From Deltaproteobacteria bacterium (GTDB taxonomy: Bacteria > Desulfobacterota > Binatia > Binatales > Binataceae), in contig JAJYYI010000048.1 of the NCBI GenBank assembly GCA_021801125.1, positions 1 to 46,498 of the forward strand: DNA of 46,498 bases. Direction: 5' to 3'. Within the stretch, counting starts at the first letter, position 1. Each line of letters begins with the position of its first letter. Both the position numbers and the translations under genes were made by a program. Below the pieces are notes generated by a model that was given only the letters and a program-made list of their open reading frames with translations, did no database searches and was not told where the DNA came from. Positions 3,053 through 37,613 of the stretch are shown here, one piece after another.

Positions 3053-4537
3053 CTAGGGAGATACCGCTTCGTACGAGGCCGCGCTGACCGGTACGGGCAT
3101 CGCGGCGCGCACCGGAGTCCAGGCGCCTGTGGTCGGGTCGAAAAGCTCGGCGGCAACGCCGGGGTTGCGCGCGGACTGGTCCTGGGACGAGCCGGCAACG
3201 TAACAGAACGAAGGGCTTTTGCCGTCGCAATTCTCGCCGCCTGCAACTAGCACCTCTCCCGAGTTCGGACCGCCGGAGAGCAGTGCGAAGGCGTGTCCGC
3301 CGCGTGCCTCGTTCAATTCGCCGGTGGGCCTAAAGTCGCCCGAGCCGCCGCCGGAGGGGTCGAAGATGTCAGCGGTGGTTTGGCTAGTCTGACGCACCCC
3401 GCGCGCGGTGCCGTCACCGCGCAGCTGAATGCCTCCCGCAATTAGCACCTGTCCGGCAAGCGGGCCGCTGTTAAGGAGCACGGAAGAGTGCCTGATGCGG
3501 GGCGAACTCATGCGCGAGCCGACTTGGATAAAACGCCCGGCGCGGGGATCGAAAAGCTCTGCTGTCGCCGAAGAGTCACCCGCCAGACGCGCACCGGCAA
3601 CCAGGCCTCCGCTCACCAACACGTCTCCCGCGAGCGCGCCTTTGACTATTGCAGGGTCGAGCACCGTTGCCCGGGCAAGCTCGCGCACGATCTCCATCCG
3701 GCCGGTCGGCGCGAATGAACCGGTTCTCGGGTCATAGATTTCGGCCGTGGCCAACGCGTGCTCGAAAAAGCCGGTGTCGTCGCCTCCGGCGATTAACACG
3801 CGGCCGTCAGCCAGCAAAGCCGCGCAGTGATTCTCACGCCGTTCTTTCATCTTGGCGGTTGCAGCGACGAACGTATCGATGGCCGGGTCGTAGAACTCCG
3901 CCGTGTCCACGGGCGGCGACGAAACGATTCCACGGAACGAGGTCTTGACGGTGCCGCTGATTCCCCCGACCAGCAACACTTTGCCGTCGGCGGGACAGTT
4001 GCAGCCGTGGATCAGCGTGGCGCTGTGGCCAGCGCGCGCAGCAGTCATCTTGCTGCCGCTTCCAGTTCCGGCCAAGGTGAACCTTCCGGTCGCCGGGTCG
4101 TACAGCTCGGCCGTGTCGAGCGCGGTACAGTGCGAGCCGAGAATTCCGTTCGAGCATCGAAGACCGCCGGCGATAAGAACCTTGCCGTTGGGCAGCAAAG
4201 TTGCCGTCGCCGTCTCGCGGCTGTCGTGAAGTCGCCCTGCCGTTTGCCTGAAACGCCCGGCCACCGAATCATAGATTTGCGCGCCGTCAGTTGACGTCAC
4301 GAACATGGCGTTGGGCACCAAATGAAGCACGTTCCCGCCGATATCGCCGCCGGCGATTAGCATCGCAAAGCCGTCGTGGCTCGTCCGAGATCCGGGCGCC
4401 GGCGATTCGGCGACAGTATCCGCGGCCGCTAAAGAGATTGCTCGACGCGCGCCCTGTAGCTCGCCGCCATTGACCACCGCGGGTATCATCGCGGTCGCGA
4501 GAAATAAAAGCAGGCTTATGGATTTCTCTGAGTGCAT
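3053..4537 (-). CDS. Secreted Kelch-repeat (galactose-oxidase-like propeller) protein
   Basis: The 494-residue product begins with a clear signal peptide (MHSEKSISLLLFLATAMIPAVVNGG). It then repeats a unit seen at least six times: a short strand ending LLPNGKVLIAGG, VLLVGG, VLIAGG or VLVAGG, then T(A/D)EL/FYDP and a segment such as GRFTLAG. This is the Kelch / galactose oxidase central-domain blade pattern, which builds a beta-propeller. No enzyme active site can be assigned, because the N-terminal and C-terminal domains of galactose oxidase are not present. Proteins of this kind are exported, and their ligands are generally unknown. The gene is monocistronic, with unassigned sequence on both sides. 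Confidence 0.8.
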   Translation of the reverse strand: MHSEKSISLLLFLATAMIPAVVNGGELQGARRAISLAAADTVAESPAPGSRTSHDGFAMLIAGGDIGGNVLHLVPNAMFVTSTDGAQIYDSVAGRFRQTAGRLHDSRETATATLLPNGKVLIAGGLRCSNGILGSHCTALDTAELYDPATGRFTLAGTGSGSKMTAARAGHSATLIHGCNCPADGKVLLVGGISGTVKTSFRGIVSSPPVDTAEFYDPAIDTFVAATAKMKERRENHCAALLADGRVLIAGGDDTGFFEHALATAEIYDPRTGSFAPTGRMEIVRELARATVLDPAIVKGALAGDVLVSGGLVAGARLAGDSSATAELFDPRAGRFIQVGSRMSSPRIRHSSVLLNSGPLAGQVLIAGGIQLRGDGTARGVRQTSQTTADIFDPSGGGSGDFRPTGELNEARGGHAFALLSGGPNSGEVLVAGGENCDGKSPSFCYVAGSSQDQSARNPGVAAELFDPTTGAWTPVRAAMPVPVSAASYEAVSP

Positions 4538-35426: not shown

Positions 35427-35434
35427 CTAATTAG
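35427..35434. repeat. Left target-site duplication, 8 bp
   Basis: CTAATTAG directly precedes the left terminal repeat. The same octamer follows the right terminal repeat at 37606-37613. IS1595-family elements make 8-bp duplications. The octamer is itself palindromic, so orientation cannot be used as extra proof. Confidence 0.75.
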
Positions 35435-35457
35435 GGCAATAATATACTTGACTGACC
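35435..35457. repeat. Left terminal inverted repeat of the IS1595-type element
   Basis: The 23 bases begin GGCAATAATATACTTGACTG. The reverse complement of 37583-37605 begins GGTAATAATATACTTGACTG. The repeat also contains the -35-like TTGACT that probably drives the transposase. Confidence 0.85.
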
Positions 35458-35476
35458 ACGCCTCTTGTGCTACGTT
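35448..35476 (+). promoter_or_regulatory. Putative transposase promoter inside the terminal repeat
   Basis: TTGACT at 35448-35453 is separated by 17 bases from TACGTT at 35471-35476. The ATG at 35483 lies only 7 bases further, so the transcript would be leaderless or nearly so. The -10 element is weak. Confidence 0.4.
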
Positions 35477-35482
35477 TAAATC

Positions 35483-36436
35483 ATGAACGCGCCAAGGACA
35501 TTGCAAGAGGCTATCACGTTCTTCTCGGATTTCGTCAACTGCCAGCGTTTCATGATCGAGCTTCGTTGGCCGGATGCCAAGGTTCGTTGCCCAACATGTC
35601 AATCCGAGAAGGTCACATATCTTGCCAACCCGCGGGTGTGGAAGTGCTACGCCAAGCACCCGCGTGCGAAGTTCTCACTGAAGGTGGGAACAATTCTTGA
35701 GGACTCGCCAGTCGGCCTTGAGAAGTGGCTACCGGCGATCTGGTTACTCGCCAATTGCAAGAACGGCATCAGCTCCTATGAGTTGCATCGGGCCCTAGGC
35801 GTGACACAAAAGACCGCTTGGTTCATGCTTCAGCGCATCCGCCTAGCCATGCAATCGGGTTCGTTCGAGAAGCTGAGCGGCGGGGTAGAAGCAGACGAAA
35901 CTTTTATCGGCGGTCTCGCCCGATTCATGCACAAGGACAAAAAGGCCAAAATCACAGGCACGGGTGGCGCGGGTAAGGCGATTGTGATGGGCCTGCTCGA
36001 ACGCGACACCGGCAAGGTTCGGCTGAAGCATGTCCCTAACGTTCAACACCGGACGCTACAGCAAGAGATTCGTGAACAGGTAAAGCCAGGCTCGCAAATC
36101 TTCACTGACGACTGGATCGCTTACAACGGTCTTGATTCCGACTATGCGCATAAGGTTATCAATCACGCCGAGGCTTACGTAAAAGGCAACGTCCACACTA
36201 ACGGGATTGAAAACTTCTGGTCGCTCCTGAAGCGATGCCTGAAAGGGACCTACGTGAGCGTCGAGCCGTTCCACCTGTTCCGCTACTTGGATGAGCAGGC
36301 GTTTCGCTACAACGAGCGCAAAGGCAACGATGCCAGTCGGTTCGCCAAGGTCGCCGGCGCGATTGTAGACAGACGCCTTACCTACGCGAAGCTAACTGGC
36401 AAAACTGGCCCTGCGGCTGAAGTTTTATCGATGTAA
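35483..36436 (+). CDS. IS1595-family transposase
   Basis: The 317-residue protein has an N-terminal zinc-ribbon-like segment (RCPTCQSEKVTYLANPRVWKCYAKHP), a helical linker with the HTH-like SSYELHRALGVTQKTAWFMLQRIR, and an ISXO2-like DDE domain. Catalytic residues are probably the Asp in VEADETFIGG, the Asp pair in IFTDDWIAYNGL and the Glu in HTNGIENFWSLLKRCLKGTY. It is intact and of family length. It cuts the terminal repeats that flank the element and inserts it with an 8-bp duplication. It starts at the ATG 26 bases after the left repeat and probably uses the promoter in that repeat. Confidence 0.92.
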   Translation: MNAPRTLQEAITFFSDFVNCQRFMIELRWPDAKVRCPTCQSEKVTYLANPRVWKCYAKHPRAKFSLKVGTILEDSPVGLEKWLPAIWLLANCKNGISSYELHRALGVTQKTAWFMLQRIRLAMQSGSFEKLSGGVEADETFIGGLARFMHKDKKAKITGTGGAGKAIVMGLLERDTGKVRLKHVPNVQHRTLQQEIREQVKPGSQIFTDDWIAYNGLDSDYAHKVINHAEAYVKGNVHTNGIENFWSLLKRCLKGTYVSVEPFHLFRYLDEQAFRYNERKGNDASRFAKVAGAIVDRRLTYAKLTGKTGPAAEVLSM

Positions 36437-36475
36437 ACAATGGCGGGGACAAAAGCACAACGCTAAAATGGAAGC

Positions 36476-36634
36476 ATGAAGCCGGCGCGCTTATGCGATC
36501 TCCGATTTGAGCCGAAGGAAGCCCTGGAGCGCTTCAAGCGCTTCGGTCGAGCCCTTCTTGCGGTGCCAAAGAGCGAAGTGCTAAAAGAGACTCGAAAGGG
36601 AAAGGCGCCCCCGAAGGGGCGCCTGAAGTCATAA
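36476..36634 (+). CDS. Small ORF (52 aa) downstream of the transposase
   Basis: The frame begins 39 bases after the transposase stop and reads MKPARLCDLRFEPKEALERF, then KRFGRALLAVPKSEVLKETR and a basic tail ending KGRLKS. I do not recognise the family. The pattern, a hydrophobic and charged helix followed by VPKSEV and a lysine-rich tail, looks like a real short protein rather than noise. Its distance from the transposase and its place within the element make it a candidate passenger or accessory gene. Its final codons overlap a strong 9-bp hairpin (36603-36624). Confidence 0.5.
   Translation: MKPARLCDLRFEPKEALERFKRFGRALLAVPKSEVLKETRKGKAPPKGRLKS
36603..36624 (+). terminator. Hairpin at the end of the small ORF
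   Basis: AGGCGCCCC (36603-36611) pairs perfectly with GGGGCGCCT (36616-36624) around CGAA, a stable loop. No T run follows. It could end the transposase transcript or protect its 3' end. Confidence 0.45.
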
Positions 36635-36680
36635 CGTGGCGGCTATTGTCGCCACTGAGCATCACCTGCCTTTGCCCGTG

Positions 36681-37112
36681 TTAGGGGCGGGTATTTCGCG
36701 CCGGACTGTGTTGCAGCACGTCCGGCGCAATCTTCTCCGTGGGTAGATTCATCTGCGTTTCGTGCGCCGCGGGCCATTCCAGTAAGCCAAAAGTATTCGG
36801 CTGCTCGGCTTTCTGAAATGTCTTTCCGCGTTTTATATAGCGATAGATCATCGCGGTGATGTAGTGTGTCGCGATTTCCTTGCCGTATTTTTTTTGGATG
36901 GCTTCGGCAATAGCTGAGACGTGCATCGGTCCGCCGTGTTCCAGCAAGACCTCTCGAATCATCTCGGGTTGAGAGAGAGCGGCACCTGGCGGTCGTCTGC
37001 GCTCGGTCCTGTCTGCAAGCAGTCTGCTAGCGATCCTCAGCGCTTCGACTTCTTGCTGCAGCCGTGCCAGTTCGGCCTCTTTCTGTTTGAGCACTTCAAA
37101 GACGTCCTTCAT
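36681..37112 (-). CDS. HARE-HTH-like winged-helix protein with coiled coil
   Basis: The 143-residue protein begins with a coiled coil (VFEVLKQKEAELARLQQEVEALRIASRLL, about 4-32). A winged-helix domain follows: SQPEMIREVLLEHGGPMHVSAIAEAIQKKYGKEIATHYITAMIYRYIKRGKTFQKAEQPNTFGLLEW (about 51-118). That segment matches the HARE-HTH / HB1-ASXL type, found in bacterial DNA-binding and restriction-associated proteins. The frame stays open to 37292, but the extra part is the antisense of the tRNA gene. The ATG at 37112 is chosen because the coiled coil begins right after it. It is divergent from the tRNA and convergent with the small ORF. It may be a regulator. Confidence 0.7.
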   Translation of the reverse strand: MKDVFEVLKQKEAELARLQQEVEALRIASRLLADRTERRRPPGAALSQPEMIREVLLEHGGPMHVSAIAEAIQKKYGKEIATHYITAMIYRYIKRGKTFQKAEQPNTFGLLEWPAAHETQMNLPTEKIAPDVLQHSPARNTRP

Positions 37113-37128
37113 GGGTGCCAGTATACAC

Positions 37129-37190
37129 AACGGACGTTCTTCGAACAAGAACTGGCAACGGCGATCGTAGTACTTGCACGAATGTCCGTT
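37129..37190. promoter_or_regulatory. Inverted repeats upstream of the HARE-HTH-like gene
   Basis: GTTCTT (37136-37141) and AAGAAC (37147-37152) form a dyad 24 bases before the start codon. A second pair, AACGGAC (37129-37135) and GTCCGTT (37184-37190), encloses it. They lie between the divergent HARE-HTH-like gene and the tRNA, a good place for an operator. Binding is a guess. Confidence 0.35.
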
Positions 37191-37208
37191 TGCAGCTATC
37201 TTAAGTTC

Positions 37209-37282
37209 GTGCCCGTAGCTCAGCGGACCAGAGCGTTCCCGTCGGAAGGAAAAGGTCGCGGGTTCGAATCCCGCCGGGCACA
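37209..37282 (+). tRNA. tRNA gene with aberrant anticodon arm (Pro(CGG) by position, Arg-like body)
   Basis: All cloverleaf elements are present. The acceptor stem GTGCCCG/CGGGCAC is perfect over 7 bp, with discriminator A at 37282. The D stem is GCTC/GAGC with a 9-base loop including GG. The T arm is GCGGG TTCGAAT CCCGC. The anticodon stem TTCCC (37236-37240) / GGAAA (37248-37252) has one C-A mismatch in the middle. The loop GTCGGAA puts CGG after the conserved T, the proline anticodon. The acceptor, D arm and variable loop look like a bacterial tRNA-Arg body instead. CCA is not encoded. It lies inside the IS1595-type element. The identity is uncertain, but the tRNA fold is not. Confidence 0.85.
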
Positions 37283-37415
37283 TTGACAACACATGCGTTC
37301 ATAGCGTAAGGTCAAAGCTCCGACGGGAACATCTGTCCTTGAGCGAAGGGCGAAAGCCGCGACCAAGGCTGAGTTCTGAAAGGCCGGACTCGAAAGGGTT
37401 CGGCCTTTCTTTTTG
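37283..37415 (+). ncRNA. Structured segment downstream of the tRNA, ending in a terminator
   Basis: Following the tRNA are TCCGACGGGAAC (37319-37330), the exact complement of the tRNA's GTTCCCGTCGGA (37235-37246), a CCTT-GAGCG-AAGG hairpin (about 37338-37350), a GGCGAAAGCC tetraloop hairpin, and then the terminator. This could be a tRNA trailer with regulatory folding or a separate small RNA. No known RNA family was recognised. Confidence 0.35.
37378..37415 (+). terminator. Rho-independent terminator after the tRNA
   Basis: GAAAGGCCG (37378-37386) pairs with CGGCCTTTC (37401-37409), a 9-bp stem, followed directly by TTTTTG. This is the clearest intrinsic terminator of the window and probably ends the tRNA transcript. 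Confidence 0.85.
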
Positions 37416-37429
37416 TCAGGTCGATCTTT

Positions 37430-37458
37430 TTGGCGCCCCGAACGCTGCGTGTTAAAAT
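37430..37458 (+). promoter_or_regulatory. Putative promoter before the truncated ORF
   Basis: TTGGCG (37430-37435) and TAAAAT (37453-37458) are 17 bases apart. The GTG start at 37468 follows by 9 bases, so the transcript would have almost no leader. Confidence 0.35.
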
Positions 37459-37467
37459 TGCGCTGCC

Positions 37468-37582
37468 GTGACTACGAAGTATACGCAAGGGAGCGTAAAG
37501 GCTCGGATTGAGGCATTTCTACTCGATAATGTCGGAAAGGTTGTAACACGCCAATCATCCATCAGTGTTGCAGATTCCGTGC
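37468..37582 (+). pseudogene. N-terminal stub of an HNH-nuclease-like protein, cut by the right terminal repeat
   Basis: From a GTG at 37468 the frame reads MTTKYTQGSVKARIEAFLLD and NVGKVVTRQS, a helical winged-helix-like start. From memory it resembles the N-terminus of a family of HNH-type endonucleases (KxxIEAFxLDNxGKVVTREQI). After about 38 residues the frame enters the right terminal repeat (37583) and runs on in unrelated sequence to 37671. The rest of the gene is absent. Either the element captured and then trimmed a passenger nuclease gene, or it inserted into one. The family call is weak, and the truncation at the repeat is certain. Confidence 0.45.
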
Positions 37583-37605
37583 GGTCAGTCAAGTATATTA
37601 TTACC
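37583..37605. repeat. Right terminal inverted repeat of the IS1595-type element
   Basis: This is the reverse complement of 35435-35457 with one mismatch, at the third base from the outer end. It begins GGTCAGTCAAGTATATTATT. Confidence 0.85.
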
Positions 37606-37613
37606 CTAATTAG
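37606..37613. repeat. Right target-site duplication, 8 bp
   Basis: CTAATTAG directly follows the right terminal repeat, identical to the octamer at 35427-35434. Only 54 bases separate it from the stop of the glutamate dehydrogenase gene. Confidence 0.75.

Follow-up and report, generated by a model that had tools for sequence, protein, structure and literature searches.

Introduction

Why does a small insertion sequence carry a tRNA gene, and what kind of RNA might that gene yield? The question arises from contig JAJYYI010000048.1 of a Deltaproteobacteria bacterium (assembly GCA_021801125.1), of which positions 1 to 46,498 of the forward strand, a stretch of 46,498 nt referred to below as the window, were analyzed. 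Positions 35435-37605 are one IS1595-family transposon, a unit of 2171 bp, with a HARE-HTH gene and an oppositely oriented tRNA gene among its cargo. A preliminary description of this DNA had suggested that the tRNA might help with a specific codon or mark a captured chromosomal locus. The unusual point, which that description did not contain, lies downstream of the tRNA gene: a strand complementary to the 5′ half of the tRNA, here called the anti-half. The carrier itself is of a known type. Our preferred, though tentative, interpretation is that the insertion sequence (IS) carries a bistable tRNA-derived RNA, probably controlled by the HARE-HTH protein. No transposon known to us combines the gene of a DNA-binding protein with a tRNA gene that is followed by its own anti-half and whose pairing with it has been kept despite sequence change. 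Among the matches listed in a search of the open-access literature, no paper was recognized that describes a tRNA with its own anti-half on a transposon.

The tRNA and its anti-half

The tRNA gene (37209-37282, + strand, anticodon CGG) was called by ARAGORN and scores 59.9 bits against an Rfam cut-off of 29. The anti-half follows on the same strand at 37319-37352. It is complementary to the tRNA 5′ half, anticodon included; the match is exact over its inner 12 nt, which lie opposite the anticodon loop and the 5′ side of the anticodon arm. The pairing has a score of 38, which was reached by none of 2000 dinucleotide shuffles (maximum 31), and folding of the region gave a z of -6 relative to shuffles. 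In a screen of 119 distinct tRNA genes, each followed by 100 nt or more of sequence in the loci collected, the scores of 38 and 36 belong to this element and to a second one described below, and the third is 22; in viral loci fetched after this screen the best other score was 26. A terminator-like hairpin of 14 pairs with a T run (37378-37415, + strand) would close the RNA; the hairpin scan overall found 3 hairpins compared to 3.1 in shuffles.

Folding was predicted thermodynamically, without kinetics or base modifications. In a growing transcript of the window RNA the acceptor stem is closed up to a length of 118 nt, and from 126 nt a long hairpin between the 5′ half and the anti-half takes its place. 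At full length the free fold is favored over a forced cloverleaf by 15.2 kcal/mol.

The second element lies on a viral-collection contig (L215). It is a degenerate IS1595 element in which a transposase remnant, 68% identical to ours over 99 aa, is followed by a HARE-HTH gene on the - strand, a tRNA gene on the + strand, an anti-half, a terminator-like hairpin (seen by eye), another open reading frame (ORF) and a right end matching at 20 of 24 positions. The two elements are well diverged: their HARE-HTH proteins are 43% identical over 134 positions and their tRNA 5′ halves agree at 20 of 37. The L215 tRNA scores 57.5 bits, again above the Rfam cut-off, and its anti-half scores 36, a value that none of 2000 shuffles reached (maximum 32). 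Its acceptor stem is predicted to give way to the hairpin between 120 and 128 nt, and its full-length free fold is favored by 18.0 kcal/mol. In a hand-chosen register, 25 of the 30 hairpin pairs of the window are paired in L215 (13 unchanged, 4 changed on one side and 8 on both), and 5 are unpaired. The jointly changed positions include the anticodon loop, which cloverleaf pairing does not constrain. Applied to the two sequences, RNAalifold recovers the acceptor, D and T stems along with two anticodon pairs; in 3 of the acceptor pairs both bases differ. Judged from these comparisons, both folds appear to be kept in the window and in L215.

The HARE-HTH gene and a model for the module

HARE-HTH is a DNA-binding fold. 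The HARE-HTH gene of the element (36681-37112, - strand, 143 aa) is divergent from the RNA gene and matches Pfam PF05066 (8.7e-07, 29.7 bits, cut-off 25.9); its product is predicted to form a long N-terminal helix and a helical domain (mean pLDDT 69). In the gap between the two genes there is an inverted repeat with 11-nt arms (37129-37139 and 37180-37190, spanning 37129-37190), which may serve as an operator. Given the fold, the divergent layout and this repeat, the protein is most likely a local regulator.

On the reading that we prefer, this IS1595 transporter IS carries a two-part module, consisting of the HARE-HTH gene and an oppositely oriented tRNA-derived RNA of approximately 205 nt, in which the tRNA is followed by a linker, the anti-half with its complement to the anticodon, and the terminator. 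Early in transcription the RNA could adopt its closed tRNA form. The anti-half, on emerging, would capture the 5′ half, and the long hairpin would conceal the anticodon in the full-length RNA. The RNA would thus work as a tRNA only after an early cut on its 3′ side, and otherwise as a hairpin. The HARE-HTH protein would most likely bind between the two genes and set their expression.

Relatives of the protein are few. Among 148 genomes of the class, two others have relatives of the window protein at E ≤ 1e-4, and no tRNA is found at either locus. None was found in plasmids; in viral contigs a single-protein scan found none, and an alignment or the L215 protein as query returned only the L215 contig. 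The L215 protein itself has no relatives in plasmids or phages. When 24 HARE-HTH loci were scanned, leaving out matches L201-L203 as second domains of proteins already scanned, a tRNA was present in three: the window, L200 and L206. In the latter two, from another genus of the family, a tRNA-Leu(CAA) (L200:1981-2068, L206:1988-2075) lies approximately 130 nt before the HARE-HTH gene on the same strand. The protein there has a coiled-coil-like start, and the tRNA is outside the top anti-half scores.

The mobile unit

The transposase (35483-36436, + strand, 317 aa, frame intact) matches DDE_Tnp_IS1595 (4.3e-40) and a zinc ribbon (7e-07) in Pfam and the NCBIfam IS1595 model at 188 bits (cut-off 75). 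These are the transposase domain and N-terminal zinc ribbon by which the family is defined in an excerpt of PMC8101967. The element is bounded by inverted arms of 31 nt at 35427-35457 and 37583-37613, which are 97% complementary. Against other copies these resolve into an octamer, CTAATTAG, at 35427-35434 and 37606-37613, and a terminal repeat of 23 bp, GG(C/T)AATAATATACTTGACTGACC, at 35435-35457 (+) and 37583-37605 (-), with one mismatch, so that the element has the 8-bp target repeats and terminal inverted repeats of the family. Since CTAATTAG is itself palindromic, the octamer alone is weak evidence. In a scan of 14 sequences (the window and L053-L065), both ends could be placed in ten (the window, L053, L054, L056, L059, L061, L062, L063, L064 and L065) and a single end in four (L055, L057, L058 and L060). 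The flanking octamers agree inside each copy, at 8 of 8 positions in nine copies and 7 of 8 in L056, and differ among copies, which indicates transposition as a single unit. In its own assembly of 150 contigs the element is present once. The preliminary description had read the locus as one IS1595-type unit with passengers, 23-bp inverted repeats with one mismatch and identical octamers, and in this it was right.

The insertion site leads to the same conclusion. In G030, of the same genus, and G031, of the same family, the genes for a rimI-type acetyltransferase and a NAD-glutamate dehydrogenase are direct neighbors that face each other. The gap between their matched parts, less than 400 bases, is too short to hold the unit, and no tRNA was called there in either genome. 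The element was therefore inserted here and is not a boundary around a local tRNA gene, and the proposal of a captured chromosomal locus falls. The tRNA and HARE-HTH genes without the repeats, an arrangement that would have contradicted a mobile unit, were not seen at this locus in G030 or G031. The sites free of the unit thus bear out the expectation of an empty site in part, while a single CTAATTAG cannot be recognized in the gap in G030, where the DNA is too diverged. Two separate insertions merely flanking a chromosomal tRNA locus are highly improbable: the palindromic octamer resembles those of other copies and could be common to both insertions, but the neighboring genes are adjacent without the unit in both relatives and a similar layout recurs inside the L215 element.

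Passengers unrelated to transposition lie between the ends, and the element is thus a transporter IS (tIS), a term found in excerpts of PMC3129680 and PMC5704250. The nine other two-ended copies range from 1046 to 2979 bp. Ten of their ORFs, with one L061 ORF left out, were searched in Pfam, giving two GmrSD, one PIN-like and one DUF433, four DUF3800 (two over the cut-off and two just under), one HNH and one unmatched (L053). GmrSD/HEC-06 type restriction cargo lies in L056:262-2007 and L062:2133-3863, PIN_10 with DUF433 in L054, and DUF3800-related cargo in L059, L063, L064 and L065. PADLOC, run with the sister passengers except the L065 protein and with the window HARE-HTH protein, assigned both GmrSD proteins to HEC-06, matched the HNH protein weakly to a type II restriction model and the L053 ORF weakly to 1TM-TIR (19.7 bits), and gave no match for the HARE-HTH protein. 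Passengers of restriction-like or DUF3800 type in the sister copies make cargo normal in this lineage, and by their domains these passengers are partly of the defence-system kind.

Of the remaining contents that the preliminary description listed, the 52-codon ORF (36476-36634, + strand) is present, but it does not look like a random passenger. Relatives of it were found by tblastn in 8 of 29 other IS1595 loci at E up to 1. Its recurrence beside related transposases makes it a probable part of the IS backbone and a candidate accessory protein of the IS1595 elements of this lineage. The supposedly truncated ORF begins at 37468 (+ strand), is cut by the right end at 37605 and continues as an open frame to 37671. 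It is without a family match in Pfam or NCBIfam, and its truncation is plausible. The transposase, HARE-HTH gene, tRNA and terminator-like hairpin stand as listed.

Selection or decay

The main rival holds that the cargo is decayed or selfish: a tRNA was captured, part of it was duplicated in inverted orientation, and the arms have been kept palindromic by template switching, with no selected function. We consider this rather unlikely, while recognizing that several observations speak for it, some of which also weigh against the reading that we prefer. In both elements the pairing is best over its inner 12 nt, where it is exact, as palindrome correction predicts. A separate IS1595 element of G030 (contig 29, 99480-100541, flanked by octamers CTAGTTAG) holds a remnant of the RNA; owing to a deletion, the anticodon region there follows directly on the beginning of the transposase gene. 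This copy has lost the tRNA 5′ half and keeps the 3′ half, anti-half and terminator, 91% identical over approximately 173 nt. In this comparison the tRNA 3′ half and the anti-half together are not significantly more conserved than the linker and the following stretch (Fisher p 0.14), nor is the anti-half alone (Fisher p 0.77). Further results weigh against the reading that we prefer. In L215 the transposase is broken, and a search for the left end found none. The pair counts rest on the chosen register, MAFFT misaligns the anti-half, and on the MAFFT alignment RNAalifold does not choose the hairpin. The cloverleaf is not the best predicted fold of the lone tRNA (-30.4 compared to -33.7 kcal/mol), which limits the prediction of an early form to the acceptor stem; the D-stem pair 10-26 has a probability of 0.00 at nearly all transcript lengths. 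A sigma-70 scan gives no promoter for the RNA, and a -35-like TTGCAC at 37174 with a -10-like TATCTT at 37197, seen by eye, was set aside as too weak to claim. Covariance model R1, built from the window and G030, misses L215 even without filters. Intact examples of the RNA are known only from the window and L215, and with two such cases selection and palindrome correction by template switching are not separable.

Other observations speak against decay. The outer hairpin is imperfect yet paired in both elements, with G-U pairs and small bulges. With the proteins only 43% identical, the order of HARE-HTH gene, tRNA, anti-half and terminator is still the same, and both tRNAs remain well over the Rfam cut-off.

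Is the tRNA an ordinary one?

The tRNA could also be ordinary functional cargo, freed by processing before the anti-half is made, the pairing being incidental. Its 59.9 bits place it 33rd among the 41 tRNAs of the genome, inside their range, and its acceptor stem is predicted to be closed up to 118 nt, as this explanation would have it. It is nonetheless improbable: the anti-half score is reached neither by shuffling nor approached by any other screened tRNA, and the body is unlike that of the typed native Pro tRNAs. Thirty of the 41 tRNA places of the genome were fetched and typed; among them are five Arg as well as Pro(CGG), Pro(TGG) and Pro(GGG). The first base of the element tRNA is G, compared to C in all three typed Pro tRNAs, and its identities are 48 to each Pro, 53-56 to the five Arg and, at the highest, 59 (gapped) to Val(GAC). 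Plasmid and phage matches of the region (13 records) were of tRNA-Arg type in all five opened, and the best matches in genomes of relatives were tRNA-Thr(GGT) in three of four opened and Arg(CCG) in one. By these comparisons the element tRNA is not Pro-like, and the body does not agree with the Pro anticodon. Together with the native tRNA-Pro(CGG), this speaks against help with a specific codon. The L215 tRNA has anticodon GCT and 75 nt, compared to 92 nt and a long arm in Ser(GCT) of genome G000. We discarded the idea of an anticodon loop of 8 nt, because both tRNAs are compatible with a 7-nt loop containing T33 on a stem of 5 pairs, one of them mismatched. A relation to tmRNA was rejected as well; the genome's own tmRNA gives only weak gapped local alignments with the region on the two strands (35, 31).

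The disagreement of body and anticodon suggests a further possibility: in the window a Pro anticodon stands on a non-Pro-like body, and in L215 a Ser anticodon stands on a body with a short arm. The anticodons differ (CGG, GCT) and neither body fits its own anticodon by the comparison made, on which basis a freed, mismatched tRNA might misread codons. The module would then be a mobile selfish or defence system, with the anti-half as antidote and the balance set by the HARE-HTH protein. We regard this as a long shot.

Another explanation has the anti-half act in trans, as an antisense RNA on a host tRNA, most likely tRNA-Arg; its best partner among 31 distinct native tRNAs is tRNA-Arg(TCG), with a score of 30. 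The element's own tRNA pairs better (38; -52.6 compared to -38.1 kcal/mol) and would win in cis, which leaves this explanation very doubtful.

Searches for further members

In 148 genomes of the class, R1 found G000 and G030, the rest scoring at most 32.6 bits; six full-length ones that were opened are ordinary tRNA genes. Since R1 is blind to L215, diverged members may have escaped it. An exact tRNA pattern found none in viral contigs, and a pattern scan of genome contigs gave 19 stretches, of which only the G030 copy (L126) aligns over the RNA (269; others at most 39). Distant matches to the downstream region in five other genomes (L089-L093) were rejected as coding, terminator or chance; four were aligned to the region, L091 was inspected as printed sequence, and ARAGORN called no tRNA in any of the five.

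Other IS1595 elements also stand near tRNA genes. Among 29 loci of the class, a tRNA was called in three: L147, the same place as L163, L150, where it lies outside the element, and L154, whose ends are unknown. In the viral collection, 86 loci were taken (the best 80 of 343 relatives and loci from earlier scans), and nine have tRNAs, three of them being the same L215 contig. The L249 call has no Rfam support. In two viral contigs an Rfam-supported tRNA with anticodon CUA, which would read amber, lies approximately 220 nt after an IS1595 transposase (L259:5158-5242, L261:1244-1328); in L259 it adjoins a Fic-like ORF, by eye, and in both the right end of the element was looked for and not found. 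The viral contig L274 (IMGVR_UViG_3300037840_000188) has an IS1595 transposase inside an array of tRNA genes; the ends of this element may lie near 3940 and 5444.

A 3.55-kb IS1595 element of G049, from another family of the class (about L163:4543-8092, in G049:C28), has TTTGGCAAA at both ends. In it a gene for a likely coiled-coil protein is divergent from a tRNA-like gene (44 bits) that lies beside the transposase; two hairpins, by eye, and an ORF with a hydrophobic end are also present. The protein has no Pfam match over the cut-off and does not align with the window HARE-HTH protein, and the tRNA-like gene has no anti-half (score 15). This element could be a second, independent instance of such an arrangement, or a coincidence.

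Comparison with known systems

The element shares with IS1595 tIS the transposase domains, terminal repeats, 8-bp target repeats and passengers. Its cargo is different, being a tRNA-derived RNA and a HARE-HTH gene; the sole IS1595 passenger named in the literature consulted, in the title of a reference, is the lincomycin resistance of tISCpe8. Bacterial Y RNAs such as YrlA (RF02553) have in common with the window RNA a long stem with a T-arm-like hairpin in the loop. Membership was rejected, as the RF02553 match of 18 bits (cut-off 69) is at the family-wide background level: of 41 family genomes, 40 have a match at E ≤ 1 and none is over the cut-off. Nor was a TROVE (Ro) protein found in any of the 41, the bacterium's own genome included. 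Phage and plasmid tRNA genes are likewise mobile, and differ in that the five opened have no anti-half (best score 17). In CreTA-like RNA toxin-antitoxin pairs a small RNA able to interfere with translation is accompanied by a neutralizing RNA or regulator. The likeness here lies in a small RNA that might interfere with translation; what differs is that both strands lie in one transcript and that there is a tRNA fold.

If the module is functional, it would provide a regulated and mobile RNA that could exist as a tRNA or as a silent hairpin, and experiments could then ask whether tRNAs serve mobile elements as weapons, shields or switches. Should the possibility of a mismatched, misreading tRNA be true, a tRNA-based toxin-antitoxin system would be built into an insertion sequence.

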